This document shows positions 24,618-35,583 of a stretch of 35,583 bases of DNA, in pieces (position 1 is the stretch's first letter; each line of letters opens with the position of its first letter). The DNA comes from Acidobacteriota bacterium. Its GTDB lineage: Bacteria > Acidobacteriota > Terriglobia > UBA7540. The notes beneath the pieces were generated by a model, which saw only the letters and a list, made by a program, of their open reading frames with translations, was not told the DNA's origin and did not search any database. The DNA lies in the NCBI GenBank assembly GCA_902812465.1, contig CADDZE010000038.1, positions 1-35,583 on the forward strand, given 5' to 3'. Position numbers and translations under genes: made by a program.

Positions 24618-27600
24618 TCAGTCCACCGTAACACCCACCTGCACGGTGTGAACCAGGTTGCCGGAAGCAGCCTTCACACTGACGGTGTAGTTGCCCTGGG
24701 GCGTCGAACTGAAGGTACCGCCTCCTCCGCAGGCCCACCACAGGAGCGCAGCCACCAGCAAAGCTCCCAAAGATGCCCCGAAGCGCAGCCGGGCACCCCA
24801 GTGCTGCTTTCGCCCGGCGGTGACAGCGCAAGCCAGCCCAAGCAGTAAGGCCAAGGCTTCGATCCACGGCTCCGGCATGGAGAGCGGCGGCTGGCGGTTC
24901 CCAGGCCGTCCAGGGGTCCACGATCCGGTAGTAGACACGTTAAGCGTTGCGGTGGAAGCGCTGGTCCCGTTGAGGGTCACTGATGTAGGGTTCAATGAAC
25001 AACTGCCGGCCGGGGGCGCGCCGCTGCAGCTCAATGAAACCGCCGCGGTGAAGCCGGTTGTCGGCGTCAGCGTAATGGTGAACTGGGCACTCTGGCCACG
25101 CGAGACGGTCGCCGTCCTTGGCGAAGCAGTCAGCACGAAATCAGTGCCAGTGCCCGTCAGGTTGACCTTCTGCGGGCTGCCCCCGGCGTCATCAGCAACG
25201 TTCAACGTCCCCACCCGTGCTCCCGCCGTGACGGGGGTGAACGTCACACTGATGGTGCAACTCTGTCCGGGCGAAAGGCTGCTGCCGCACTGGTTGGTTT
25301 CGTTGAAATCGGGTCCCAGCACACCGATGCTGCTGATATTCAGCGTGGCGTCCCCGGCGTTGGTCAGGGTCACATTCTGGGCAGCGCTGGTGCTACCGTC
25401 AATCTGGTTGCCAAAGGTGAGGCTGACGGGATTCAGGCAGGCCGCTGGTGTGCTGGCCTTCAGGTATTTGGTTATGAAGGCATCGGTGTTTCCTCCCGTC
25501 TGAGGCTGTAGAGGGTTCACGGTGGGGAAGTCGTTCGAGGAGGTGTAACCCACCACATAAGCATTGCCAGCCTGATCGACCGCCACCGCCGCGCCCGTAT
25601 CCGAGGTTTTGCCGCCCAGATAGGTGGAAAACGCCAAGGCGCAGCCGCCGGGAACGAGCCGCGAGACGAACGCGTCCTGGTTGCCGCCAATCGTGGCCTG
25701 TGTCGCATTGGCCAGGGGAAACTTGGTCGAGCCGGTCTGCCCGGCTACCGTTACGCTACCGGTGGGATCTAGGCCGATGCCATTGGCCGTATCCGAGCCC
25801 TCGCCGCCCAGGTAGGTGGAATAGACGAGTGAAGAGCTGCCGGATTTGGTGGTATCAATCTTGGCTACGAAAGCGTCTTGGATGCCTTGGAGGGTATTGT
25901 TGGGTGGGGGCAGGGAGTTGAGCAAGGGAAAGTCAGTGGAGTCCGTAAAGCCTGTCAAGTAGGCGTTTTGCGAGGAATCGACGGCGAGAGAGGAGGCAAC
26001 CTCATCGTTCGAGCCGCCCAGATACGTCGAGTAGAGAATCTTCTGCCCGGTAGGGTCCAGCTTAGTCAGGAAGGCGTCGCGCACCCCTCCAAAAGCGCTT
26101 TGATAGGCGTTCACGATGGGGAAGTTGTTGGAGCCGGTCCCCCCGGCCACGTAGATGTTGTTAGCGCTGTCCACGCCGATGCCCAGCGCGACCTCGGTGC
26201 TTCCTCCGCCTAGGAAAGTGGAATAAAGCAGGGAGGCGCTTCCCGACTGCGTGGTGTCCAGCTTGGCTACAAACCCATCCTGGCCTCCCTGCAGCGCGTT
26301 ATTGGGGGGCGGCAGGGGATTCTTGGTAGGGAAGCCGGGCGACTGGGTGAGTCCTACCACGTAGACCCTGTTCGAGGAATCCAGCGCGACCCCTAACGCT
26401 TGGTCATTGCTCGCTCCGCCCAGGAAGGTGGAGTAGAGAAGCGCCGATCCGCTCGGGTTTAGTTCGGCCACGAAAGCGTCCGTTGAACCAAACGAGCAAG
26501 TAGCGTTACATTGTGATTGGAAGGCGTTCACGACGGGAAAATCCGACGAGTTGGTGCCTCCCACAAAGTAGGCATTGCCGGAAGCATCCACCGCGATAGC
26601 TATTCCTTGGTCTTGCGAAGAACCGCCGACGTAGGTACTGTAAATCAGCGACGAGCCATCCGGCGAGAGCTTGGCCACAAACGCGTCCTGGCCCCCTTTT
26701 AACTTGTTCTGGTACGGCGTCCCCGCGGGAGGGAAATTGTTTGAGTTCGTGAAACCCGTAATATAGACCGCTCCGCTGGCGTCCACCGCCACGCCCTGCC
26801 CCTGATCGACCTGCGCTCCGCCCAGGTAGGTCGAATAGGCAATGCTGGGCGTCGAAGCCTGATCGGTCTGGTCCTGCGCGCGTGTATACACCACGACAGG
26901 ATCAATAACCAGGGGCCTCGTCGGGTCGTGGGGCGCAATCTGAAAGGCGACGTGGTTGTTGCCTTTTAGAACATACTTACCTTCCAAAAGGTCCGCCGTA
27001 CGCGGTGCTTGGTTCATGGTTCCTGATACCCATGGACTAACAGCTAGCTGTCGACCGCTTTCCAACGGTTGATAAACCCGAGGCTTACGGAGCCGGAACT
27101 CGCAATCAGCGAGGCGGACCACCAGGTCACCATTCGCCGCTACGTGTAAGGGCGTGGTTGACAACGCCTGCCGATCGGCGATCAATAATTGTTCCCTCCG
27201 AGGCTTCCGCCGCGTGCCGGACGCCGCCTGCCCGAAATCTTCTGCCCTCACTGCGAACTCAATAGCTTGTGGGTTGGCTCCTGGCGCCAGAATGAAGTCG
27301 TACTCCAGCTGCCCTTCGCGACCGTAGTAGACCACGTCGACGCCCGGGTAGACGTCCCTGTAGCGTACCTGGGAGTAAGTGGGAACGTTGGTATGCCAGC
27401 TCTGGGGATTGTTCCCAATGAAATAATTGGCCTTGCCAGGCAGCTGGCCGATCCCGGTTGCTACCGCCCGGGGACTGGCGCCTACGAGTTCCATACGGAG
27501 AACGGCCGGGATCCTGGATTGTGGCTGGGGTTCATGAGAACCTGCATGGATGCTGGGGTGAATAGCCAAGGCCGCCCCGCTGCTGGTCAGATACAGCGCG

Positions 27601-27887
27601 TAATAGGGGCTGCGCGCTAGAAACTTGACCTGATGGGCGCCTGGTCCGTCAACCTGGCCTAAATTAGGCTCGAAGGCCAAAGGCAAGCGCGATAGGATCT
27701 CGTCGGCACTGGGTTTGACCCCTTTGTTCTGAGGAGGAAGCCATCGAGCTGGCGTTCCTTTGCGGACCAAAACCGGTTGAGCGCCAGTAATAATCCGAAC
27801 CTGTTCTAGCCGCAGTAGAACGACGGCTGTGGGCACCGCAACTGCCGCCACACCAGCGAAATAGATCACCCTACCGGAAACCTTCAT
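24618..27887 (-). CDS. SBBP beta-propeller surface protein with anchor region
   Basis: A 1089-residue exported protein. Residues 7-25 form a hydrophobic signal-type segment. About 70-335 is the DUF7948-type region usual before such propellers (FEPNLGQVDG, then ANYFIGNNPQSWHTNVPTY and DVYPGVDVVYYG). Seven SBBP repeats follow at about 351, 416, 485, 555, 619, 689 and 753, each with a YSTYLGG-like opening and a YVVGYTSSNDFP-like end. Then a choice-of-anchor-D/ASH-like Ig domain (about 820-915), a second Ig-like domain (about 917-985), a membrane span (1008-1024), basic residues, a second span (1038-1052) running into Cys1053-Gly4, and a last short beta segment. The ATG at 27887 is preferred over the first one because a GGGGGGA box precedes it. 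The propeller probably faces outward, as a surface adhesion or carbohydrate-binding protein. Confidence 0.9.
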   Translation of the reverse strand: MKVSGRVIYFAGVAAVAVPTAVVLLRLEQVRIITGAQPVLVRKGTPARWLPPQNKGVKPSADEILSRLPLAFEPNLGQVDGPGAHQVKFLARSPYYALYLTSSGAALAIHPSIHAGSHEPQPQSRIPAVLRMELVGASPRAVATGIGQLPGKANYFIGNNPQSWHTNVPTYSQVRYRDVYPGVDVVYYGREGQLEYDFILAPGANPQAIEFAVRAEDFGQAASGTRRKPRREQLLIADRQALSTTPLHVAANGDLVVRLADCEFRLRKPRVYQPLESGRQLAVSPWVSGTMNQAPRTADLLEGKYVLKGNNHVAFQIAPHDPTRPLVIDPVVVYTRAQDQTDQASTPSIAYSTYLGGAQVDQGQGVAVDASGAVYITGFTNSNNFPPAGTPYQNKLKGGQDAFVAKLSPDGSSLIYSTYVGGSSQDQGIAIAVDASGNAYFVGGTNSSDFPVVNAFQSQCNATCSFGSTDAFVAELNPSGSALLYSTFLGGASNDQALGVALDSSNRVYVVGLTQSPGFPTKNPLPPPNNALQGGQDGFVAKLDTTQSGSASLLYSTFLGGGSTEVALGIGVDSANNIYVAGGTGSNNFPIVNAYQSAFGGVRDAFLTKLDPTGQKILYSTYLGGSNDEVASSLAVDSSQNAYLTGFTDSTDFPLLNSLPPPNNTLQGIQDAFVAKIDTTKSGSSSLVYSTYLGGEGSDTANGIGLDPTGSVTVAGQTGSTKFPLANATQATIGGNQDAFVSRLVPGGCALAFSTYLGGKTSDTGAAVAVDQAGNAYVVGYTSSNDFPTVNPLQPQTGGNTDAFITKYLKASTPAACLNPVSLTFGNQIDGSTSAAQNVTLTNAGDATLNISSIGVLGPDFNETNQCGSSLSPGQSCTISVTFTPVTAGARVGTLNVADDAGGSPQKVNLTGTGTDFVLTASPRTATVSRGQSAQFTITLTPTTGFTAAVSLSCSGAPPAGSCSLNPTSVTLNGTSASTATLNVSTTGSWTPGRPGNRQPPLSMPEPWIEALALLLGLACAVTAGRKQHWGARLRFGASLGALLVAALLWWACGGGGTFSSTPQGNYTVSVKAASGNLVHTVQVGVTVD

Positions 27888-27956
27888 GCCATCCCCCCGA
27901 GTGGAAGCAACCGCCGTGCTAGCCGCTAAGATCCCGAGCACTGCCGAAATCGCTTG

Positions 27957-30396: not shown

Positions 30397-33087
30397 CTAG
30401 ATCGCGCTGCATCGCGGATCAAGGTTGTAGATCGAGCCGAATACCCCCAGGGCCACCAGGGAGACGATTATTCCCGAGGCGAGCCCCTTCTGCCGGTAGT
30501 AGAAGCGAACCACGTGGCGGCCGGCCTCCACGCAGACGGCGCGAAACAGGTGATTGGCCCGCAGCACCGGCGTTTCGCGCCCGTCGACGGTGGCGTGCCA
30601 GTTGGGGTCGAACTGGTCTAGCAGCACGACGTATCCGGGCCGCGCGAGGCTGGCGTTGAGAACAACTTCCGCCGGGTTGCGCTCCACAATCTCTACGCTC
30701 CCCGCCGCGCCTGTCGCGGCGGAGGATTCTAGCCCCGGTGTCCCTTCGTTCGGTTCCGGGCGGGCGCTTACCGTTGAAGCCTTGGACACAGCTGGAGACG
30801 GCCCTGGGGACATCGGAGCTGCAACCTCGGCTCTGCTTAACGGGGGCGGCGATTCCAGGATCACCTGGCGCAGGGGATTGAAGTCGGGGGAGGAGAGGAG
30901 CGCCAGCGTGTCGTCCGCGCCGGGTGCGTAGACGGCCTCGCCCGCGGCGAAGGCGCGCGGCGTGAAACACAGGTCTTCGTACAGGTACCCGGGCCGCGGC
31001 GAGCCGTTGAAGATGCGCGCGGCCAGGCGAGTGGCTGGACTGGGGAACGCATGCTTGCGAGCGATGTACTTGACGTTAGCGCGGCCAAGCAAGCAGTCGA
31101 ACCTCCCTGGCTGGTCTTTGATCGCGCGAGCAAAAATCCAGAAATCATACAAAATCGAAGGCAGTGACCCCTCTAGGTCCGCGTTCTGCGCCACTTCGAC
31201 TCCTGAGAGCATGGTGCCGCGCTCGAGCTCGAGGTGGCCTAGAAAGGCAGCCTGCGCCGCCGGGGACAGATGGGCAGCCTCGGGGATGGAATCGAAGTTG
31301 ATAAAACGCTGCGGATCGTCCTGACCCTTGCGAGGTTCGTGTTCGTAGAGGAAGGCGAAACGGTAAGGTTGGCGGGGATCGCGAGGCTGATCCAAGGCAG
31401 GCGGCCGGTAGCTGTAGAAGCCCGGCGGCACCACGGGATTCGCAGCGTAGTTTTGCCAGGCGAGCTGGGCCACCCCGAGCAGTGCCACGGGCACCACCAA
31501 CCGCCGAGCCTGGTCTTTGCCTCGCGCGAGCGTCACGAGCCACAACAAACTGCCAAGAAGGAAGCCGGCCAAACCGGGCAGGAGCAACCGCAGCATCGTC
31601 ACCCAGTACTTCCCCCCGGCGCGTAGGTCTTCGGCGGGGAGCCATTCTGCAGCGCTCTGGGATGCGATCGCGTCACTCCAGTGCATCAGCCAGCTCCCCA
31701 GCCGAGTGAGCGGCTCGGGAGCGATCAGGGCGGCCAACCAGGCCAGGAGGACGGCGCCCAGCGTTCCAGAGAGAAGCGAGCGCAGAGTTCGGCTGCTCTC
31801 CTCGCGCCAGCAGGCCCGGCCAAGCGCGTCGATCCCGAAGCCACTGAGCAGGCAGACGGGCAGCAGCGCCGGAGCGAACATCTTCACCGGAAAGCGCACC
31901 AGCTGAAGCAGAGGAACCAGCAGATAGGTCTCAGCAAAGACGGGAGTGAAGCGTCCGAAAGCAACGAAGAGCAGAAGAAGCGCCGCGATGGCCGCGAAGT
32001 GCCTCCGCCGGTCCTCGCCCATGATCCAGCCCGCCAGGGCAAAGAACAGTGGGATGAAGCCAACGGAAACGGAGACGAAATAAGCCTGGTTCGCGCCGCC
32101 CAAGACCTCCGTCCACGGTGTCGCTCCTCCCAGAGGATCGCCGAAGAAGCCGGGAATCACCACGTCGAGGAGTGCCAGCGGATTGAGGGACCAGTAGGAA
32201 GTCTGCTGGAAGGACAGGCCGGCGGTGCCGCGGCGTGCGTTGTGCAGCAAGGCCAGGGACGGGAAGAATTGAATGGCGCAAAGGGCCACCATCGCTACTC
32301 CGGCCATGATGAACCTGGCGGCGACGCGGCGGTTGGCGGCACACCAAACCTGTTGCCTCGACCCGCGTTCGAAGAAAGCGTAGCCCAGGCAGAGTCCGTA
32401 GGATGCCAGCAGGGTGAAGGGCTCGCCGGCCAGCAGCTGCAGCCCCAAGACAACCGACAGTAGAATCCACGGCCGCCACGAACAGCTCCGGATGGCATGG
32501 TCGGTGGCTAGCAGCGCCCAGGGCAGCCACGCCGTACACGCCGCCTGGTTGTAGAAGTTCCCCAGCGAGAGTATCGGTCCGCTGAGCATGAAGAAGGCCG
32601 CAGCCAAGAACGCGGCGGTGCGGCTCTGCCGCCAGCGGCGCGCCAGCAGGTAGGTTCCGGCACCCGCGACGGCGAAATGTAAGGGGTAATGCAGCGTGTA
32701 AGCAAACTTTACGGGAAGCAAGATGATGAACAAAGTATACGGATAGAAAAAGAGAAAATTGGGATTGGAAAGCAGTGGCTCGCCGAAGCTGAGGTACGGA
32801 TTCCAATATGGCAGCCAGCCGCGCCGCACGCTGTCGTGAATAAACGTAGCTACCGGGTAGGTGTACTTGGAGACGTCACGGTAGAAGAGCATCTCCGAGG
32901 TGAATAGCGGGCGCCAGAACATGGCTAAAGCGCCGAATACCAGTAACAGGATGGGAAGCAGGGCGCCGCCTCCCTTGGTTCCCGGCTTCAGGCTGACAGT
33001 TTCCGGCCCCGCCGAGGGCCACTTGCCGCCCGAGTCTTCGCTCGCGCCTTGTGTATTTTCAATAACTTGGTGGCTTCGTTCCTTCAT
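30397..33087 (-). CDS. YfhO-type polytopic membrane protein (GT-C like)
   Basis: An 896-residue protein with about a dozen membrane spans in the first 560 residues and a periplasmic C-terminal domain. The opening MFWRPLFTSEMLFYRDVSKYTYPVATF, WLPYWNPYLSFGEPLLSNPNFLFFYPYT and the terminal DQFDPNWHATVDGRETPVLRANHLFRAVCVEAGRHVVRFYYR (shown in parts) are characteristic of the YfhO family, which has the GT-C glycosyltransferase fold and in Bacillus decorates teichoic acid; here it may transfer a sugar from a polyprenyl-phosphate to an envelope polymer. A TTG at 33123 would add 12 residues; the ATG at 33087 is preferred. Neither start has a strong ribosome site. It follows the DprE2-like gene on the same strand by about 95 bases and is probably co-transcribed. 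Confidence 0.85.
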   Translation of the reverse strand: MKERSHQVIENTQGASEDSGGKWPSAGPETVSLKPGTKGGGALLPILLLVFGALAMFWRPLFTSEMLFYRDVSKYTYPVATFIHDSVRRGWLPYWNPYLSFGEPLLSNPNFLFFYPYTLFIILLPVKFAYTLHYPLHFAVAGAGTYLLARRWRQSRTAAFLAAAFFMLSGPILSLGNFYNQAACTAWLPWALLATDHAIRSCSWRPWILLSVVLGLQLLAGEPFTLLASYGLCLGYAFFERGSRQQVWCAANRRVAARFIMAGVAMVALCAIQFFPSLALLHNARRGTAGLSFQQTSYWSLNPLALLDVVIPGFFGDPLGGATPWTEVLGGANQAYFVSVSVGFIPLFFALAGWIMGEDRRRHFAAIAALLLLFVAFGRFTPVFAETYLLVPLLQLVRFPVKMFAPALLPVCLLSGFGIDALGRACWREESSRTLRSLLSGTLGAVLLAWLAALIAPEPLTRLGSWLMHWSDAIASQSAAEWLPAEDLRAGGKYWVTMLRLLLPGLAGFLLGSLLWLVTLARGKDQARRLVVPVALLGVAQLAWQNYAANPVVPPGFYSYRPPALDQPRDPRQPYRFAFLYEHEPRKGQDDPQRFINFDSIPEAAHLSPAAQAAFLGHLELERGTMLSGVEVAQNADLEGSLPSILYDFWIFARAIKDQPGRFDCLLGRANVKYIARKHAFPSPATRLAARIFNGSPRPGYLYEDLCFTPRAFAAGEAVYAPGADDTLALLSSPDFNPLRQVILESPPPLSRAEVAAPMSPGPSPAVSKASTVSARPEPNEGTPGLESSAATGAAGSVEIVERNPAEVVLNASLARPGYVVLLDQFDPNWHATVDGRETPVLRANHLFRAVCVEAGRHVVRFYYRQKGLASGIIVSLVALGVFGSIYNLDPRCSAI

Positions 33088-33182
33088 TTTTAGAGGCCGA
33101 CAAGGGTTCAGGCCACTGACCAATCGTTGTTAACTACGGAGTAATCCTATCCGCCCGGGGGTCCGCCCGTCAACCAGGGGAG

Positions 33183-33923
33183 TCACAACCTCAGCCGCTT
33201 GAAGAGCCACTCCGGGATAAGGCGGACCAGTAACATAATCGGCCGCCAGAACCAGGGTAGGTAGACAACATCTTGGCCCCGCTCAATGGCTTTGTAAATG
33301 CCCCGTGCTACCGATTCGGGCGAGGCCACTAGGAATGTCCCCTGGCGGCCGTAGGTCATCGGGGTATCGACAAATCCGGGCTTAACGGTGATCACCCGCA
33401 CGCCAAAGCGAAAGAGGTAATTCCGGAGGCCCTGCAGGTAAGCCGTAAGGCCAGCCTTGGCAGCGCAGTAGAGAAAATTGCTCTGTCGGCCGCGGTCGCC
33501 GGCCACCGAGGAAATCGCACAAATGAAGCCGCTCTGCTGCTGGGCTAGGCGGGCAGCCAGCAGGTTGAGGAGGGAAACGCAGCCGGTGAAGTTGCTATCC
33601 AGGATACGGCGGACTTCCGCCGGGCCAGCCTCGGCCGGGGGAGTTGGGCCGAGATAGCCGATGCAGAGCACGGCACCGGCCAGGTTGCCTCCCGCTCGCT
33701 CGAAGCATCGGTCGATCACTGCCTGGTGCGAGGCGAAGTCCAGAACGTCGAGCACGAGCGCTTCGGCCCGGACTCCATAGCGAAGAGCCAAGTCTGACGC
33801 AAGGGCTTGGGTCTCGTATTCATCGCGGCCGGTCAGCAGACAGGCGTACCCGCGGCGGGCAAACTCCTCCGCCAGCGGACGGGCAATCCCCGATGTGGCA
33901 CCCAGAATCAGAACAACCGGCAC
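33183..33923 (-). CDS. Short-chain dehydrogenase, DprE2-like
   Basis: A 246-residue classical SDR. Cofactor motif LGATSGIARPLAEEFARRG (7-25); active-site Asn111, Ser139, Tyr152 and Lys156 (ISSVAGDRGRQSNFLYCAAK); and VITVKPGFVDTPMT after it. The replacement of the usual NNAG by CIGYLGP and the SSVAGDRGRQSNF block resemble DprE2, which reduces the 2-keto form of decaprenyl-phosphoryl ribose to the arabinose donor in actinobacteria. Starting at GTG 33923 with a GAGG box close ahead. The YfhO-type protein downstream would be a fitting partner for a lipid-linked pentose donor, but no DprE1-like oxidase is in the window. An alternative is any other SDR acting on a lipid-linked or small carbonyl substrate. 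Confidence 0.85.
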   Translation of the reverse strand: MPVVLILGATSGIARPLAEEFARRGYACLLTGRDEYETQALASDLALRYGVRAEALVLDVLDFASHQAVIDRCFERAGGNLAGAVLCIGYLGPTPPAEAGPAEVRRILDSNFTGCVSLLNLLAARLAQQQSGFICAISSVAGDRGRQSNFLYCAAKAGLTAYLQGLRNYLFRFGVRVITVKPGFVDTPMTYGRQGTFLVASPESVARGIYKAIERGQDVVYLPWFWRPIMLLVRLIPEWLFKRLRL

Positions 33924-34272: not shown

Positions 34273-34301
34273 TTGACAGAGTTCCGAAAAGGCAGTTTAC
34301 T
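34273..34301 (+). promoter_or_regulatory. Sigma-70-like promoter of the Cys-rich gene
   Basis: A perfect TTGACA (34273-34278) and TTTACT (34296-34301) are 17 bases apart, the optimal spacing. Transcription would begin near 34308 and leave a leader of about 240 bases. Confidence 0.6.
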
Positions 34302-34549
34302 GTGGCTGCTAGCCAAAGATCGGTCCACTCCACCGAACCGGCACCGCGTCGTTTCCGTCCTGCAAACTCAGCGCGTGTGGCGAAGGTGAAAGAGTGCGGC
34401 GTAAATGAGGCGCCTCGGCCCCAGTGGGCGCCACCAAGCAGGTAGTCATAGCCAAGAAACGAACAAGCCGCACCTAGGTTCGATGAGGCGGCGCCAGACA
34501 CGGGCACGCCCGGTTAGCGAAGTCTATTCACTTCCAAAGGAGGCCCCCC

Positions 34550-35583
34550 ATGCCCGACCAGGAGAAGAGCAAGCCGTCCCAAGCCGACGCTACCCCGCCC
34601 GCGGTGCCGGAGCTCCACAGCGAAGATTTCCAGTATGTGTTGAGAGCTTTACTGGCTGCCTACCAGCCGATTCTGGAGCAGCAGCTGAACCTTGCCAAGA
34701 ACCCGGAGCAGTTGAAGAAAGAGGCGGAAAGCCGGCAGCCCAACTGCGCCGACGAACTCGCCGAAGCCAACCGGATCTTTGCCAAGTTCTTCACCGAAGA
34801 AGTCGCCCTGCGGTCTATTCCCGCCACCGGACGCCAGCAGCTGGGGCCGATTGAAAACTGGCGATGGTGTTTCGAGCATCTGCGCTGCTGCTTCATCTTC
34901 GGATGGCTGGTTTGCCGCGGTCCCCGCACATTCCGTGCCTGGGCCTATTACGTCTATCAGTACTGGCGCTGCATTCGCGAATCGATCGGCAGGCCCGTGG
35001 CCAGTCCTCCCAGCAGCGAACAGCGGCAGGACTTCCGCACCCTCGTCGAAGCTTTAGCCGCAGCCTACAAGCCCTATTTGACGGACCAGCTGGCCAGCGT
35101 TGAATTCCCGACTGGAATTCCCGAGGAGGTGATCGGGGGACAAATCGACTGCTTCGAGGGCCTAGAAGAGCCGTGCCGGATCTTCGAGCGCCTACTCACT
35201 TCCGAGGCTGCGCAGGCCCTGCTCGGCAGTGAAACTTTCACGGCCCGCCACCAGGATCGGAGCTTCTGGTTCTGCCGCTGCTGGTGCCTGTGTGCCATTT
35301 GCTTTGGCTGCTGCCTGGCCCGTGCTCGGAGCTTCGTCGACGTCGTCTGGTGCCTGGTGTATTACTTCCGCTGCTTAGGTGATTGCTTCCGGCCATTGCA
35401 ATGCGAAATCACCCAGCCGTCGGTGAATGAGTGCGCCGAGGAACAGTACTATCCGGGGCCCGGCGTCCTGGGAATCGAGATCTCCGGCACCGCCACCGGC
35501 GCCTTTTGCGATCACTACGTACTCGAGTGGAAGGATCCTCTGGACCCGCCTGCCGCCTATACACAGTCGGGTTTCTTCTACGC
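34550..35583 (+). CDS. Duplicated Cys- and Trp-rich protein of unknown function (3' end outside window)
   Basis: The ATG at 34550, preceded by AAAGGAGG seven bases away, opens a frame of at least 344 residues that runs off the window. No signal peptide or usual membrane helix is seen. After a charged N-terminus (1-24) there are two copies of one module, residues about 25-145 and 160-280, aligned with a constant offset of 134-135: DFQYVLRALLAAYQPILEQQL against DFRTLVEALAAAYKPYLTDQL, Cys66 against Cys201, RIFAKFFTEE against RIFERLLTSE, Cys107 against Cys242, Gly118 against Gly253, and WRC (139-141) against FRC (273-275). The second copy has CRCWCLCAICFGCC at 242-255, seven cysteines in fourteen residues. 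Residues 308-329 (GIEISGTATGAFCDHYVLEW) look like the start of an Ig-like beta domain. I do not recognise the family. Metal binding, membrane association through the Cys/Trp/Tyr-rich helices, or a structural role are all possible. Confidence 0.85.
   Translation, partial: MPDQEKSKPSQADATPPAVPELHSEDFQYVLRALLAAYQPILEQQLNLAKNPEQLKKEAESRQPNCADELAEANRIFAKFFTEEVALRSIPATGRQQLGPIENWRWCFEHLRCCFIFGWLVCRGPRTFRAWAYYVYQYWRCIRESIGRPVASPPSSEQRQDFRTLVEALAAAYKPYLTDQLASVEFPTGIPEEVIGGQIDCFEGLEEPCRIFERLLTSEAAQALLGSETFTARHQDRSFWFCRCWCLCAICFGCCLARARSFVDVVWCLVYYFRCLGDCFRPLQCEITQPSVNECAEEQYYPGPGVLGIEISGTATGAFCDHYVLEWKDPLDPPAAYTQSGFFY

Follow-up and report, generated by a model that had tools for sequence, protein, structure and literature searches.

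A rare three-gene operon encoding a protein with a duplicated, cysteine- and tryptophan-rich helical base and an exchangeable Ig-like arm

At the end of an acidobacterial contig, a reading frame that an initial annotation singled out as encoding an unrecognised protein runs off the assembled sequence. What kind of protein is this, and what might it do? The window, i.e. the whole stretch of DNA analysed, comprises 35,583 nucleotides, and the frame in question (gene A, encoding protein A) occupies positions 34550..35581 on the + strand (344 amino acids), with its 3' end open at the contig end. The contig stops within the gene, so that 34550..35583 (+) holds the first 344 of about 803 residues. 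Just 5' of the ATG, a ribosome-binding site, AAAGGAGG, can be read directly at 34536..34543 (+), and purine-rich sites of this kind precede many homologues of gene A. The initial annotation had called for the sequence past position 35583, and a profile search recovered it from a second contig of this genome (G000:C98:1-1374), where 458 further residues and a stop codon are encoded. The two pieces, on contigs C38 and C98, share one frame provided that a single base (or 1+3n) is absent at the contig break, which corresponds to ...VYAAPAPPAGPG... in the homologue L007. As the genome carries a single copy, and as both frame and alignment run across the break, we infer that the end of C38 and the start of C98 form one gene A. 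The joined protein, of about 803 residues with Ig-like domains following an N-terminal base, is the larger multi-domain protein that had been suspected. Estimated dN/dS is about 0.07-0.08 against the homologues L005 and L041 (dS being near saturation in these comparisons) and 0.08 for the closer pair L034/L035, indicating that gene A is under strong purifying selection.

Searches of Pfam, NCBIfam, PHROGs and PDB sequences with both the window fragment and full-length members returned no family for A, in agreement with the first reading of this DNA. When the 39 members were compared with Pfam at E 0.1, the base was left unmatched and weak Ig-like rows alone were returned; the PDB sequence search likewise gave no match to the base. 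Weak antibody and Ig-like rows in these searches were set aside as generic beta sandwiches.

The base itself is a tandem duplication, as had been proposed. Repeat 1 (residues 20-150; 34607..34999, +) and repeat 2 (residues 154-292; 35009..35425, +) are 33% identical over 122 columns in a BLASTP pair search (E 3e-14). Profile-profile comparison supports their relationship with a probability of 99.1% (E 4.6e-19, 124 columns), and their local score of 127 compares with 29 +/- 5 in 2000 shuffles (maximum 57; z 19). The two halves do align, if not "almost without gaps", as first described, since a few gaps are present. As the duplication is common to all members, it is older than the family. An AlphaFold2 model of residues 20-299, built from 39 sequences (pLDDT 90.8, pTM 0.87), predicts seven helices in each half, in identical order. 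The hydrophobic helices have a family mean Kyte-Doolittle value of 1.1-1.5, borderline for membrane insertion, and the cysteine- and tryptophan-rich aromatic helices noted earlier are indeed present.

Structure searches with the base model provided no relative: Foldseek found no match at E 0.001 in the PDB or BFVD, and no convincing relative occurred among the matches listed for the PDB by Foldseek and VIA-align. As the best second-look Z (4.2, with terpene synthases and GPCRs) lies below the level reached by unrelated helical proteins, we claim no fold for the base, whose predicted structure resembles no solved fold that could be found.

Cysteines are the most constant feature of the base. 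Fourteen of them (107, 113, 114, 141, 242, 244, 246, 248, 255, 268, 275, 279, 285, and 295) are identical in 39/39 members. The pairs 66/201, 107/242, and 141/275 correspond between the two halves, and seven cysteines fall within residues 242-255, both as initially reported. This cluster (C-R-C-W-C-L-C...C-C; 35273..35314, +) includes the invariant residues 242, 244, 246, 248, and 255. The C-x2-C spacing does occur, at 248-251-254, but Cys251 is conserved in just nine of the 39 members. The cysteines of the base might bind metal, be paired in disulphides or respond to redox state.

One reading of this pattern, which we regard as rather unlikely, is that the base is a thiol-lined site for Cu(I), Zn or Fe-S (a store, a sensor or a cofactor site), with the downstream membrane protein B (see below) transporting the metal across the membrane and the rest of A being accessory. 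The 14 invariant cysteines fit this reading, as does the hydrophilic N-terminus of A, which contains no hydrophobic segment before residue 104 and hence no signal-peptide-like start, as the initial annotation had stated. In addition, Cys244-248-(251)-255 and Cys268-275-279 are placed at the helical spacing i, i+4, i+7, i+11, so that they can form stripes, which on this reading would line neighbouring helices. On the other hand, neither Pfam nor the PDB provides a sequence match to copper-storage proteins or metallothioneins, the invariant tryptophans, arginines and glycines go beyond the needs of a store, no metal genes recur in the neighbourhood, and the exchange of C-terminal parts described below would be left unexplained.

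The part of A that follows the base starts in the window with residues 296-344 of about 803 (35435..35581, +), which belong to a first Ig/Fn3-like domain modelled as a beta sandwich. In a full-length model of L005 (pLDDT 83), residues ~276-790 form three such sandwiches, so the Ig-like beta segment suspected after the base extends into three Ig/Fn3-like domains, hereafter the arm. Structural matches of the L005 arm are Ig/Fn3 rods of adhesins and cell-adhesion proteins with Z 7-9 (SiiE Z 9.4, RbmA Z 7.7), a modelled resemblance that is generic and says little about function. A match in genome G271 was rejected as a family member, being the beta domain of a subtilase. A subtilase-like protein (L048 1523-5386) carries an accessory beta domain resembling the first arm domain of A (E 1.7e-5), which may hint at a source of arm domains.

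Do base and arm share a history? Several lines of evidence indicate that they do not. Pairwise identities of base and arm correlate at only 0.28: for example, the bases of L005 and L041 are 77% identical and their arms 34%, while L009 and L031 show the reverse (52% and 72%, respectively). Arms fall into four classes, with 41-98% identity within classes and averages of ~28-36% between them, and base identity is ~55% between arm classes, whichever class is considered. When mapped on the base tree, the arm classes require 12 changes, and a well-supported acidobacterial base clade (99/96) bears arms of classes 1, 2, and 4. One shared history is rejected by AU tests in both directions: arm class 2 does not hold as a clade under the base data (p 3e-7), nor does the seven-row acidobacterial base clade under the arm data (p 6e-43). 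The effect of arm class on identity is +0.03 before residue 295 and +0.25 after it; although the effect within the arm is in part built into the way the classes were defined, its absence from the base is not. The change point, residue 295, is the last invariant cysteine. The histories of base and arm thus differ: arms of four classes have been shuffled over the bases, with a sharp junction at 295. L005 and L041 come from acidobacterial MAGs with the same isolate label (YP4), and as their bases are alike and their arms unlike, a single community may harbour more than one arm class.

Nine cysteine positions are mostly conserved in the arm as well. This abundance of arm cysteines, together with the presence of the biofilm scaffold RbmA among the structural matches of the arm, could be accommodated if A were a structural coat or matrix protein (spore or cyst coat, biofilm scaffold) cross-linked through cysteines and built up from the cytosol with no signal peptide. 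We consider this improbable, somewhat more so than a metal site, as A is single copy, rare and patchily distributed. Moreover, the host phyla are mostly not known to form spores, and typical coat proteins have no invariant cysteine positions, unlike the base.

Homologue searches and lists of neighbours, both advocated in the initial annotation, revealed a recurring operon. On C98, gene A is followed by B (1394-1810) and then S (1719-2027); in this genome the B and S frames overlap by ~90 bases (L046 1394-2027). Of the 38 other loci, 30 have a recognisable B and 31 an S; neighbours are otherwise unrelated, and no other neighbour recurs widely. Neighbour clusters 0, 2, and 4-7 were discarded, as they consist for the most part of genes A, B or S read in antisense or in a wrong frame. 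B is a predicted membrane protein, DUF1360-like, with a DCxxC motif. It matches DUF1360 (PF07098) over profile positions 51-101 with E down to 2.6e-8; the B proteins of seven relatives score 21.2-34.2 bits, above the curated Pfam cut-off of 21 bits, and are thereby DUF1360 members, while B of our genome lies just below it (20.6 bits). S starts with MCCGQKR in our genome (M-x-CCGQKR as a pattern), ends in a short conserved domain (RYxExSPIxVRGPxTGRxYxFS...VDxRDAxALLxTxFF), and occurs once per genome and only beside A in the genomes tested. No convincing family was found for S in PHROGs or Pfam, where its matches are single-member and weak. A and its operon are thus without a described relative in the libraries searched, and A and S are assigned to no known family.

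An independently regulated single-gene locus, with its own strong promoter and a cruciform, had been proposed for gene A. This picture is not supported, since A heads the three-gene operon. A sigma-70 scan upstream of gene A gave no match by its rule; a promoter-like TTGACA-17-TTTACT pair (34273..34301, +) is recognisable by eye only and fails the scan's stricter rule. The inverted-repeat scan of the same region found no strong cruciform, the best nearby repeat being just 71% complementary. Homologues share no upstream motif beyond the ribosome-binding site, and an Rfam search of the window gave no match. Divergent from gene A, with ~630 bases between them, lies a short-chain dehydrogenase gene (33183-33923, -). 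Further away on the same strand, the window encodes a 908-residue protein with a C-terminal YfhO match over just 50 residues (30397-33123) and a 1107-residue protein with DUF7948, four SBBP beta-propeller repeats and an ASPM/SPD-2/Hydin-type Ig-like domain (24618-27941).

Do B and S follow the base or the arm? Given the arm, both correlate with the base (partial r 0.48 and 0.53, respectively, p 0.001); given the base, their correlation with the arm is weaker (0.12 and 0.13, p 0.07 and 0.06). B and S thus follow the base, with no clear dependence on the arm. This bears on the idea that A is an effector or toxin delivered into other cells, its arms serving different targets. Modular exchange of the kind seen between base and arm is common among such proteins, yet A contains no enzymatic domain, no immunity-like gene co-varies with the arm (B and S track the base instead), and secretion genes do not recur nearby, making this explanation very improbable.

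A further tie concerns two cysteines of the base, Cys122 (34913..34915, +) and Cys254 (35309..35311, +). Both are gone in all six homologues of one deltaproteobacterial clade (L034, L035, and L037-L040), which are also without B and S, and both are kept in every other homologue. For L037 the contig ends, but S is absent genome-wide. On the base tree, which does not include L037, these losses amount to one event, and L021, which has both cysteines and no S, is an exception in one direction. With a single evolutionary event and this exception, the apparent tie of B and S to Cys122 and Cys254 should be taken as a lead and not as proof.

One scan of 84,980 species genomes identified 38 loci outside our own, a lower bound, since the scan was built on short peptide patterns. 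They are distributed among about ten phyla (Acidobacteriota, Methylomirabilota, Pseudomonadota, Myxococcota, Thermodesulfobacteriota, Gemmatimonadota, Verrucomicrobiota, Actinomycetota, Deferribacterota, and Rhodothermota), of which single labels can be binning errors, as many loci are MAGs. Cultivated Pelomonas, Albitalea, Neoroseomonas, and Massilia strains have A, among them Massilia glaciei B448-2 and Neoroseomonas soli LMG 31231. The gene is nevertheless rare: it was found in 4 of 61 relatives, convincingly in two of 396 Acidobacteriota and in one of 300 genomes of one order, and in one of 289 of one phylum, the single case in each of the latter being the genome on which the search was centred. 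This scattered spread, with a fixed base and an exchangeable tip, recalls tail fibres, and A-B-S might be what is left of a phage, plasmid or contractile particle, or be carried by one, with the arm as a tail-fibre-like tip. B weakly resembles phrog_781 (E 1e-4) and has two weak matches in Microbacterium phages; S has no phage match. Searches for A itself in 50,697 phage records, 72,556 plasmid records and IMG/VR found nothing, and no structural phage genes recur beside it, so we give this origin very little weight.

A fixed platform with an exchangeable arm accounts most simply for the duplication, the operon, the invariant cysteines, the exchange at residue 295, the way in which B and S vary with the base, and the disappearance of Cys122, Cys254, B, and S together from a single clade. 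We tentatively propose (with a probability of about 0.4) that A-B-S forms a membrane-associated base bearing an exchangeable binding arm. The N-terminal ~275 residues of A would constitute the doubled, cysteine- and tryptophan-rich helical base and the C-terminal ~500 residues a rod of three Ig/fibronectin-like domains. Base, B, and S would contact each other to form the platform at the membrane, and the arm would bind a partner or surface and be swapped as a unit through recombination, thereby changing specificity. Cys122 and Cys254 could form a disulphide or bind metal in working with B or S. Two points speak against this proposal: the hydrophobic helices of the base are borderline for membrane insertion, and, as A has no signal-peptide-like start, the exposure of the arm on a surface would be unexplained. 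The arm may instead act on the cytosolic side. A bolder version, which we hold to be doubtful, is a widely transferred three-gene system combining a base of new fold, two small cysteine-bearing partners, exchangeable Ig-like arms and a thiol or metal link (Cys122/Cys254 with DCxxC of B or CCG of S) that locks or senses assembly.

Four findings go beyond the initial annotation: the operon, its occurrence in many phyla, the exchange of arms and the tie of B and S to the two cysteines 122 and 254. We are left with a conserved operon in about ten phyla, including cultivated strains, whose confidently modelled helical domain has no solved match that we could find. Base/arm exchange and the B/S/two-cysteine tie make a "hypothetical protein" testable, through arm targets, an A-B-S complex and the role of the 14 cysteines, and the operon would offer a first functional lead for DUF1360.

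How does A compare with known systems? The copper stores Csp1 and Csp3 resemble the base in being cysteine-rich helical bundles, Csp3 having no signal sequence either; Csp proteins, whether cytosolic or exported, are four-helix bundles whose cysteines bind 13-20 Cu(I) (PMC7558416). Unlike A, they are single small tetramerising bundles with neither arm nor B/S partners, and there is no sequence match; no four-helix-bundle copper storage chain is among the Foldseek and VIA-align matches listed for the base, an absence that need not tell against such a fold. SiiE and RbmA share with the arm a rod of beta-sandwich domains (Z 7-9), but they are secreted, only ~10% identical in sequence and without a helical cysteine base; A thus has the rod of a secreted Ig/Fn3 adhesin and, with its hydrophilic N-terminus, no recognisable secretion signal. 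Finally, a fixed base with an exchangeable tip is a working principle known elsewhere, and phage tail fibres and spikes, like A, have a conserved docking end and an exchangeable recognition end. A differs from these in being found neither on phages nor beside tail genes, and in having a helical cysteine base and the partners B and S.
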